From: Alphaproteobacteria bacterium | Lineage (GTDB): Bacteria; Pseudomonadota; Alphaproteobacteria; Micropepsales; Micropepsaceae | DNA length: 64,000 nt | Direction: 5' to 3' | Assembly: GCA_019241645.1 (NCBI GenBank) | Contig: JAFAWQ010000022.1 | Span: forward strand, 1-64,000 | Notes under the pieces: generated by a model | The model's input: the letters and a program-made list of their open reading frames with translations, nothing else | What the model was told of the DNA's origin: nothing | Databases searched by the model: none | Program-made: the position numbers and the translations under genes | In this document: piece by piece, positions 3,624 to 29,397 of the stretch | Layout: the number at the start of each line of letters is the position of its first letter | How positions within the stretch are numbered: the first letter of the stretch is position 1

Positions 3624-3980
3624 TTTGCCCCCTCGCCAGCCGTCCCAAACGAGGGAAGGCTGCTTCGAGAGCACTCTTTCGGGAGTGCTCTTCACCACTC
3701 AGGTGTAGCTCTTACTGGTTGTGAATGCAACCAATAGTTGTATTTCGATTGGCGTTTCCCGTTCAATTGAGTGGAACAGGGGGCAGATCAGGTTGGGGAC
3801 GGGGAGCCGCCGGCTGCGGCTCCCCTTCGCATGCGGCCCCGACGGGTTTTAGGTGGCCCCAGCCGCATGGAAAGCGATGGGTCGTTTTCGACCGCGGCTT
3901 CACTCTAGCCGCATCGGGCAAATAGAGCGTGAACGGTATCCAGTGGCGGCGGCGGACGGCCAGCGGGCCGATAATTTCCC
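3624..3980. other. Intergenic stretch without a convincing gene
   Basis: No open frame here has start context or recognisable content. The only clear structure is the hairpin at 3801-3825. It separates the minus-strand pair at 2255-3623 from the SOS-like promoter at 3981. Confidence 0.6.
3801..3825. other. Strong GC hairpin
   Basis: GGGGAGCCGC pairs perfectly with GCGGCTCCCC around a 5-nt loop. No T tract follows on either strand, so it is not a standard terminator. Function unknown. Confidence 0.5.
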
Positions 3981-4021
3981 TTGACGGGCCAGGCGTGGGA
4001 CTATATGTTCACTCTTCGTAC
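3981..4021 (+). promoter_or_regulatory. Putative sigma70 promoter with LexA-like box
   Basis: TTGACG (3981-3986), a 17-nt spacer and TATGTT (4004-4009) form a strong promoter. The -10 is overlapped by GTTCactcttcGTAC (4007-4021), one base off the alphaproteobacterial LexA direct repeat GTTC-N7-GTTC. The same architecture is repeated at 29357-29397 on the other strand. It points toward the uracil-DNA-glycosylase-family gene, about 170 nt downstream. LexA control is inferred from the motif only. Confidence 0.6.
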
Positions 4022-4168
4022 TTATCGGTAGGAGAGATGCGGAAAAAACTCGAAAAGTGAGGTTCAATTCGGTTATTTTCTTGCGCGAAGAAGGTCAGGG
4101 AAATGCCAATAACCGGAAAAGTGGTGATAACGACTGCTCAGCTTGATTCAGAACCACTACATGTTGTG
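3981..4168 (+). repeat. Dispersed repeat, copy 1 (inverted partner at 29189-29397)
   Basis: The copies share, in the same order: the TTGACG-N17-TATGTTC promoter with GTAC; TCGAAAAGTGAGGTTCAATT plus CGGT and an ATTTT-TTGCGC block; AAAAGTGGTGA-AACGACTGCTC; and CCACTACATGT-GTG. Spacing differs by about 4 nt between the second and third blocks. There is no transposase and no target-site duplication was noticed. Copy 1 lies immediately before the glycosylase gene and would form its transcribed leader. It contains a seven-codon frame MRKKLEK (4037-4060) behind AGGAG, which could be a leader peptide. Confidence 0.7.
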
Positions 4169-4188
4169 CGGTGGAGACGACGCTCAAA

Positions 4189-4800
4189 ATGCCGGGCCGG
4201 AATGGACAGCGGCGGGAGTCGCTGGACGAAATCCTCGCCCAAATTCGTGCCTGCCGGCTTTGCGCAACGCACCTTCCGCACGGTCCGCGGCCGGTGCTGC
4301 ATGCCAGCCCCACGGCGAAGCTTTGCATTGTCAGCCAGGCCCCGGGCCTGCGCGTCCATGAGACCGGCCTGTCGTTCAACGATGCCAGCGGGGACCGCTT
4401 GCGGGATTGGCTGGGGATAGACCGCGAAACCTTCTACGATGAATCGCGCGTGGCCATTGCGGCGATGGCCTTCTGCTTTCCCGGCTACAACGAAGCGGGC
4501 CACGATTTGCCGCCGCGGAAGGAATGCGCAGCCACCTGGCGCGCGCGGCTGTTCGCGGCATTGCCGCAGTTCGAAACCACGCTGCTGGTGGGCACGTTCG
4601 CGCAAGCGTGGCATCTCGCCGGCCAGGCGAAAGGCGGCATGACGGAAACCGTGCGGGCATGGCGGGATTACGCTCCGCGCTATATTCCATTGCCGCATCC
4701 CTCGTGGCGCAACAGCGGTTGGATCAAGAAGAATCCATGGTTCGCGGAAGAGCTTTTGCCCTACTTGCGGCGGCGCGTGCGGCGGTTGCTTGCGGCCTGA
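4189..4800 (+). CDS. Uracil-DNA glycosylase superfamily protein
   Basis: 203 aa from ATG 4189, or 209 aa if GTG 4171 is used; neither has an ideal ribosome site (GGAG at 4173-4176 is 12 nt from the ATG). A CxxC (CRLC) lies near the N terminus. Motif 1 is SQAPGLRVHETGLSFND followed by GDRLRDWLG, and motif 2 is HPSWRNSGWIKKNPWF, matching the broad COG1573-like uracil-DNA glycosylase family with the QAPG variant rather than GEAPG. Family members excise uracil or related bases from DNA; activity of this subgroup is not certain. The SOS-like promoter upstream fits a repair role. The following hydrolase gene overlaps its 3' end by 64 nt. Confidence 0.8.
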   Translation: MPGRNGQRRESLDEILAQIRACRLCATHLPHGPRPVLHASPTAKLCIVSQAPGLRVHETGLSFNDASGDRLRDWLGIDRETFYDESRVAIAAMAFCFPGYNEAGHDLPPRKECAATWRARLFAALPQFETTLLVGTFAQAWHLAGQAKGGMTETVRAWRDYAPRYIPLPHPSWRNSGWIKKNPWFAEELLPYLRRRVRRLLAA

Positions 4801-29126: not shown

Positions 29127-29314
29127 CCCATCCAAAGCCATGGCCGCGCGTTGTCCGTCTCGGCAGCCCCGGCGATTGTCCCCCGAAACACTACATGTAG
29201 TGGTCTTGCCTCTTGTGGAGCAGTCGTTGTCACCACTTTTGCGCTTTTCTTTGCCGTCCCTCCCCTCACCCTCTGCGCAACAAAATTACCGAATTGAACC
29301 TCACTTTTCGACAT
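29036..29314 (-). CDS. Small open frame in repeat copy 2, doubtful
   Basis: 92 codons from ATG 29314, beginning MSKSEVQFGNFVAQRV and passing through AKVVTTTA and RPLHVVF. The start lies about 55 nt below the SOS-like -10. In copy 1 the matching frame lacks an ATG and has a net 4-nt length change, although KVVITTA and PLHVV survive in another frame. The 3' part runs antisense into maiA. It may be a real small SOS-induced protein, a relic, or only a by-product of conserved DNA. Confidence 0.25.
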   Translation of the reverse strand: MSKSEVQFGNFVAQRVRGGTAKKSAKVVTTTAPQEARPLHVVFRGTIAGAAETDNARPWLWMGHSASGWFLGSAASKAGCANAVTSIRVSVG

Positions 29315-29397
29315 TTTCTTCGGTATTTTTCCCTTCCCTCGGCCAGCCTCGGTCTGGTACGAAAAGAGAACATAATATGCTGTATCGCCGCCGTCAA
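29189..29397 (-). repeat. Dispersed repeat, copy 2 (inverted partner at 3981-4168)
   Basis: Read on the minus strand, it has the same ordered blocks as copy 1: TTGACG-N17-TATGTTC, TCGAAAAGTGAGGTTCAATT then CGGT, AAAAGTGGTGA-AACGACTGCTC, and ends in a perfect 14-bp palindrome CACTACATGTAGTG (29189-29202). It lies in the gap between maiA and the minus-strand gene at 29441. The rest of 29127-29440 shows nothing else. Confidence 0.7.
29357..29397 (-). promoter_or_regulatory. Putative sigma70 promoter with LexA-like box, copy 2
   Basis: On the minus strand: TTGACG (29397-29392), 17 nt, TATGTT (29374-29369), overlapped by GTTCtcttttcGTAC (29371-29357). Spacer length and the position of the GTTC-N7-GTAC box are the same as at 3981-4021. 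Confidence 0.6.

Follow-up and report, generated by a model that had tools for sequence, protein, structure and literature searches.

BOX elements are intergenic, and REP/BIME sequences are mosaic interspersed repeats with RAYT transposases. In the sections of PMC3049150 that describe it, BOX of Streptococcus pneumoniae is modular (boxA-boxB-boxC), has a variable number of modules, counts 125 elements in one genome, and carries terminal inverted repeats and target duplications. According to the same sections, it hardly occurs beyond near relatives, ORFs are present in some of its large copies, and the elements are transcribed with their neighbours; they are read as parasitic, and their folded RNA may affect the genes co-transcribed (PMC3049150). 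Correia/NEMIS, RPE and MITE-like elements are short non-autonomous repeats that are intergenic and sometimes lie in genes, Correia elements bear putative promoters, and the CIR of Caulobacter are alphaproteobacterial intergenic repeats with a conserved GANTC, as outlined in parts of PMC2229807. We analyzed a stretch of 64,000 nucleotides from the genome of an alphaproteobacterial soil bacterium, here called the window, and two segments of it are probably copies of a genus-restricted, BOX-like modular repeat family that includes a LexA-type promoter subfamily. The genus is very likely Rhizomicrobium, judging from the sequence, because a locus in the relative G061 reads the same as locus L100 of R. 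electricum.

The initial annotation had described a pair of stretches, 25 kb from each other and on opposite strands, with shared blocks in the same order, and this was confirmed by MAFFT alignment, in which copy 1 (3981-4168, + strand) and copy 2 (29189-29397, - strand) showed the promoter, a LexA-like box and modules A, B5 and B3 in one order. Both stretches started with the same promoter geometry, as had been stated, TTGACG-17-TATGTT in each, and shared the common end CCACTACATGT in B3 (4153-4168 and 29189-29204). In copy 1, the sigma-70-type promoter was located at 3981-4009 (one found, shuffles mean 0.3) and the LexA-type box GTTCACTCTTCGTAC, with seven of the eight bases of GTTC-N7-GTTC, overlapped its -10 element at 4007-4021. 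Module A (4051-4086) and module B5 (4117-4139) were detected by pattern and weight-matrix scans, and the near-palindromic module B3 (4153-4168), ACCACTACATGTTGTG, by weight-matrix scan. On the - strand, copy 2 consisted of the promoter at 29369-29397 (one found, shuffles mean 0.1), the box GTTCTCTTTTCGTAC at 29357-29371 (seven of eight bases), A at 29275-29310 and B5 at 29218-29240 (both by the two kinds of scan), and B3, ACCACTACATGTAGTG, at 29189-29204 (weight-matrix scan). Each stretch had one promoter-like site and no other, and A, B5 and B3 were the only body modules in either. The spacers of the two copies were unrelated and of different lengths, so a recent duplication was rejected, in agreement with the changed bases reported earlier. 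A BLASTN search of 3900-4250 against the same genome returned copy 2 at E 1.3e-20 and six more places at E <= 8.6e-4; copies 1 and 2 were the sole family members found in the window.

The genome held more than two copies, as the description of the elements as dispersed had implied, and 22 loci carried modules. The A pattern (20 bases, up to three mismatches) occurred at nine places and the B5 pattern (up to three mismatches) at 10, each with no match in reversed controls, and together these places made up 16 loci. Weight matrices built with the known copies included were run over 820 kb (29% of the genome), namely the contigs already known to carry copies, and gave 15 loci, six of them new; seven weak single-module matches were left out of the 22. 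An extrapolation to about 50 copies in the whole genome is biased upwards because the scanned contigs were known to hold copies. By rough gene calls, 19 of the 22 loci were intergenic, one of these lying under a candidate ORF, and three (L013, L025 and L028) were in a two-ORF gene pair.

When the copies were read side by side, the consensus of module A was GCGAAAAGTGAGGTTCAATTCGGCAAT...TTGCG, and those of the other modules were AAAGTGGTGATAACGACTGC for B5, ACCACAACATCTGGTGG for B3, TTTTCGCCAAACAAAACGAACAATTC for C, GAGGTTCGAATGGGAACTT for E, GGGGGAGGGGG for the G-tract and TTCGTGAAAACGA for D. The general order was promoter, A, B5 and B3, while C, E, the G-tract and D came after them with no fixed arrangement or number, and any module could be missing. 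A copy would accordingly be read as a promoter module joined to body modules A and B5/B3 and then C, E, G-tract and D. B3 began 30 or 29 nt on from B5 (spacing by eye). C, E and the G-tract swapped places between copies; E stood before C in C43:31483 and after it in C45:140979. Exceptions to the order were found after dnaE, where this genome and the near relative G074 both had B5-B3-A (L016/L114), and at L047, with the G-tract ahead of A. B3, being a near-palindrome, was matched on either strand, and B3 and the end of D were inverted copies of each other in L023 and L117. The family thus had distinct modules with a shared order and variable presence, as in a BOX-like modular repeat, and was dispersed, multi-copy, intergenic and limited to close relatives, as BOX-like repeats are. 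A GC-rich repeat, GTCATGGCCGGGC...CCCGGCCATCC, was nested between promoter and B5 at C45:140720-141010, L026 and L116.

The SOS-like character attributed to the two promoters was supported, since a box of the form GTTC-N7-GTAC (7/8), the kind of site expected at a promoter of the SOS regulon, overlapped the -10 element in both window copies, at a level that 11% of random pieces also reach. A + strand box with seven or eight matching bases lay 46-94 nt upstream of six of the nine A sites in this genome, and three of these sites had a perfect 8/8 box; L013, L016 and L018 had none. Among random 170-nt pieces of the window, at least 7/8 was found in 11% and 8/8 in 0.4%, giving binomial values of 1e-4 and 5e-6, respectively, for the enrichment. 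One of four A sites in G074 had a 7/8 box and three had none, and the single A site of G081 had a perfect one; ten A sites of farther relatives had no + strand box and three 7/8 boxes on the - strand. The association with the LexA box was observed in three genomes, this one and two near relatives, and in no others. The scanned stretches contained 31 exact LexA-type boxes, four in the repeat family, 25 without assignment, and two preceding proteins read as LexA and SSB (one each); the recA promoter of the same genome contained the 7/8 box GAACGAAGCATGTAC by eye. An exact box was also present at C44:79275, near the L018 copy, flanked by a radical SAM gene on one side and a small antitoxin-like gene on the other (both named by eye).

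Six copies in this genome and three in G074 formed a second promoter class that lacks the LexA box (classed by eye); in these copies an ATG lay about 6-8 nt past a -10-like hexamer, the arrangement of leaderless genes. Module A was present in six of seven LexA-class copies, all from this genome, versus none of the nine other-class copies (six from this genome and three from G074), with a Fisher p of 9e-4 on classes assigned by eye; L023 was a LexA-class copy with a decayed A.

Copy 1 was next to a gene of the uracil-DNA glycosylase (UDG) superfamily (4189-4800, + strand; PF03167, E 6.7e-23). The likely start codon is the ATG at 4189, with the ORF open from a GTG at 4171, and B3 of copy 1 ended at 4168, 20 bp ahead of that ATG. 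Copy 2 was directed towards a convergently oriented glutathione S-transferase gene, whose 3' end it faces, and had no downstream gene nearby on its own strand. Because the promoter overlaps a LexA-type operator, transcription of the SOS subfamily should rise on DNA damage. The copy 1 leader, about 170 nt without a terminator-like site, would then run into the UDG gene, and such read-through would make this gene SOS-inducible; the copy 2 transcript would run towards the 3' end of the glutathione S-transferase gene. LexA control, the start site and read-through into UDG are what we infer from the arrangement of these sites. The wider proposal, that repeat copies with a LexA-operated promoter were recruited ahead of host genes, here UDG, so that the family carries SOS control, is a tentative one that we consider rather unlikely. 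At E <= 1e-20, UDG was detected in 35 of the 69 genomes of the genus. G074 had a copy of another kind ahead of it (F promoter, G-tract and D), and no repeat copy was seen by eye within 360 nt ahead of UDG in 11 other relatives (12 of 29 fetched loci inspected, including G074). By rough gene calls, 15 of 23 copies had a downstream gene oriented in their own direction, a count in which UDG itself was scored as overlapping at L122.

Several other neighbours were recorded. Copies at L153, L154, L155, L165 and L166 lay beside homologous secreted-looking proteins, of which the one tested (L153) carries the GLUG motif PF07581, and L162 and L166 had another repeat-protein gene in common. In G074, a copy preceded a sigma factor gene read as rpoH, with Sigma70 domains (L117/L165), and B5-B3 at L105 could be translated in frame with a YjbR-like gene, lengthening its product at the N-terminus (PF04237, E 2.5e-6 for a piece of 60 aa, which falls just short of the curated cut-off). 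The promoter of a gene read as a B12-dependent ribonucleotide reductase (nrdJ-like; L170, contig C45) holds ACACAACATCTGGAG, which we take to resemble an NrdR box.

The initial annotation had proposed a search for the family in relatives, and A-like sites were indeed found in 15 of the 68 other genus genomes. The 20-base A pattern gave 30 matches in 16 of 69 genomes, with one in the reversed control; 21 of the 30 were in those 15 genomes, and a few look like chance. An exact, shorter A pattern gave 31 matches in 19 of 69 genomes versus one control, a control that was too kind because eight of 12 loci inspected were without other family features; the genus-wide claim therefore rests on the 20-base pattern. 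Among 84,980 species genomes the A pattern occurred in 23 stretches, 10 of which were read; eight were alphaproteobacterial and the same as the genus loci, and the 15 scattered ones are estimated to be about what chance would give. Copy 1 had no blastn match in 60 relatives, and therefore only short modules are shared. Two A-related arrangements were noted in relatives: a G-rich stretch with A just ahead of apparent ilvD and leuC starts in two of them (L042 and L247; names by eye), and, in G013 (L035), a gene read as DNA ligase followed immediately by three A-like copies in tandem that repeat every 41 bp.

This genome and G074 share the locus that follows dnaE; there B3 and A were conserved, the spacers differed, and B5 followed the usual form of each genome; at the rnhB locus the spacers were partly conserved too. 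The G074 form of B5, GTGAGTACGAATGGTGCCGC, occurred at eight places in G074 and at none in this genome, and in other genomes its nine matches were about equal to the eight in controls; the B5 form of this genome exceeded the control only in this genome (11 versus 4). Over 15 bases, the mean B5 difference was 3.0 within this genome, 1.4 within G074 and 5.1 between them. This pattern could result from gene conversion, from re-amplification or from a partner acting in trans. Two B5 copies of this genome were just two bases from a G074 copy, which weakens the case for concerted B5 change and makes a trans-acting partner less likely; a co-evolving partner of this sort is about half as likely as the proposal that the family carries SOS control.

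The two-ORF gene pair, whose second ORF contains GAPxGNxNRLxHG, was found in 40 of 69 genus genomes with a hand-made query for that ORF that favours A-bearing pairs. It accounted for L013, L025 and L028 in this genome and L029, L039 and L193-L208 in relatives. GGTTCAA(A/T)TGGG, which reads as a ribosome-binding site plus start codon, was present at 15 of 22 inspected junctions, mostly after a G-rich stretch. The junction often bore A or B plus a G-rich stretch; B5-B3 was at this junction in L025 and L028 and in L115 of G074, the A sequence was reversed at L212 and L214, and none was seen at the L210 and L211 junctions. Pfam and PHROGs gave no family for the pair at a useful E-value. The idea that the intergenic copies derive from the gene pair by deletion was rejected, since they have only 29-49 bp in common with the A gene pair. 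The repeat may either have entered the gene pair or have spread from it.

Of the three possibilities raised at the outset, an RNA, a small gene or a regulatory cassette, the cassette fits best, and neither a conserved fold nor one small gene was borne out. The initial annotation had not included the second promoter class, modules C, D, E and the G-tract, or the copies within the two-ORF gene pair. The copies might instead form a family of small regulatory RNAs induced by the SOS response, each made from a stand-alone gene and pairing with target mRNAs through A and B; this would match a promoter and LexA-type box ahead of conserved blocks separated by variable spacers, and copy 2 with no nearby downstream gene on its strand. 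However, the A-to-B3 pieces of the window fold like shuffles (z -0.05 and +2.07), neither copy has a terminator-like site, and A and B also occur in the gene pair and without the box, which makes small RNAs improbable. Eight A-to-B3 pieces in all folded no better than shuffles (z -1.73 to +2.07). A conserved hairpin before C or A was rejected both in this genome (mean z -0.79 over 11 segments, with singles of -2.8 and -2.1) and in relatives (mean z -0.68 over 16 segments, with singles of -2.3 and -2.2); G-rich stretches ahead of C or A formed strong hairpins in few copies only. A D hairpin was likewise rejected, since by eye it was paired in some copies only. Rfam returned one tRNA and no other match at the gathering score for L001-L008, and one sub-threshold match (E 0.78) in a further search.

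Slightly less probable still is that the copies belong to, or are relics of, a family of small protein-coding genes, represented by the 29314 frame and by leaderless ORFs of the second promoter class. Eleven inspected copies, two of them less certain, have an ATG, chosen by the author, about 6-8 nt after the -10-like hexamer, in several copies a frame runs through the modules without a stop, and, taken over 18 copies, the longest open frames exceeded those of shuffles (Fisher p 0.003). This excess is a weak sign of coding in some copies, because the copy ends were author-chosen, and single p-values ranged from 0.035 to 0.725. The A/B frame is open in copy 2, whereas copy 1 has a stop and a frame change, and B3 has fixed third positions and varying first positions by eye. 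Independently selected regulator sites, for LexA and for an NrdR-like factor at B3, with no repeat family behind them, are very improbable: B3 is near-palindromic, is matched on both strands and has the 12-mer CACAACATCTGG in common with the nrdJ promoter, but blocks of ~20-39 bp, their shared order and the B5-B3 spacing of 30/29 nt (by eye) exceed what independent sites would give.

The modular repeat family may have been mobile in the past by means of a partner. The reported absence of a transposase held with respect to the Y1/IS200 family, as PF01797 (Y1 transposase) had no match in the genome and was positive in five of 14 control genomes; a REP/RAYT system was rejected for lack of this gene. 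Near-identical full-length copies, defined ends, a target duplication, an empty site or a partner transposase were not found in this analysis. The statement that no named element of this kind is known agreed with the searches of Rfam, of plasmids and phages with copy 1, and of viral contigs with the A and C patterns. A phage or plasmid match was not borne out, either for copy 1 in plasmids and phages or for the A and C patterns in viral contigs. Listings of open-access papers gave no fitting description of such repeats in this group, nor of a MITE-like repeat with a LexA box. Should the LexA-type promoter prove functional, dispersed repeats of one family would be able to bring further genes, here one for DNA repair, under the control of the DNA-damage response, and comparing copies that have the box with those that lack it would be a natural way to examine how wiring of this kind comes about.

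Compared with the described systems, the family resembles REP/BIME in being mosaic and interspersed and differs in that no Y1 transposase gene was found in the genome. It is alphaproteobacterial, intergenic and of similar length, like the CIR as outlined in PMC2229807, but CIR was rejected because GANTC occurred in none of the six module consensus sequences. Like Correia/NEMIS and RPE in the same parts of that source, it is short, intergenic, sometimes in genes and promoter-bearing, and unlike them it is without a clear terminal inverted repeat or a one-stem-loop fold (PMC2229807). Pneumococcal BOX appears to be the closest known kind, likened by description and not by BOX sequence. In the sections of PMC3049150 concerned, BOX is, like the present family, modular, variable in module number and largely confined to near relatives; the present family is from an unrelated organism, and terminal inverted repeats and target duplications were not found in it here. 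Those sections describe no LexA-type operator in BOX (PMC3049150), and the new part is that a repeat of this kind includes a putative SOS promoter among its modules.
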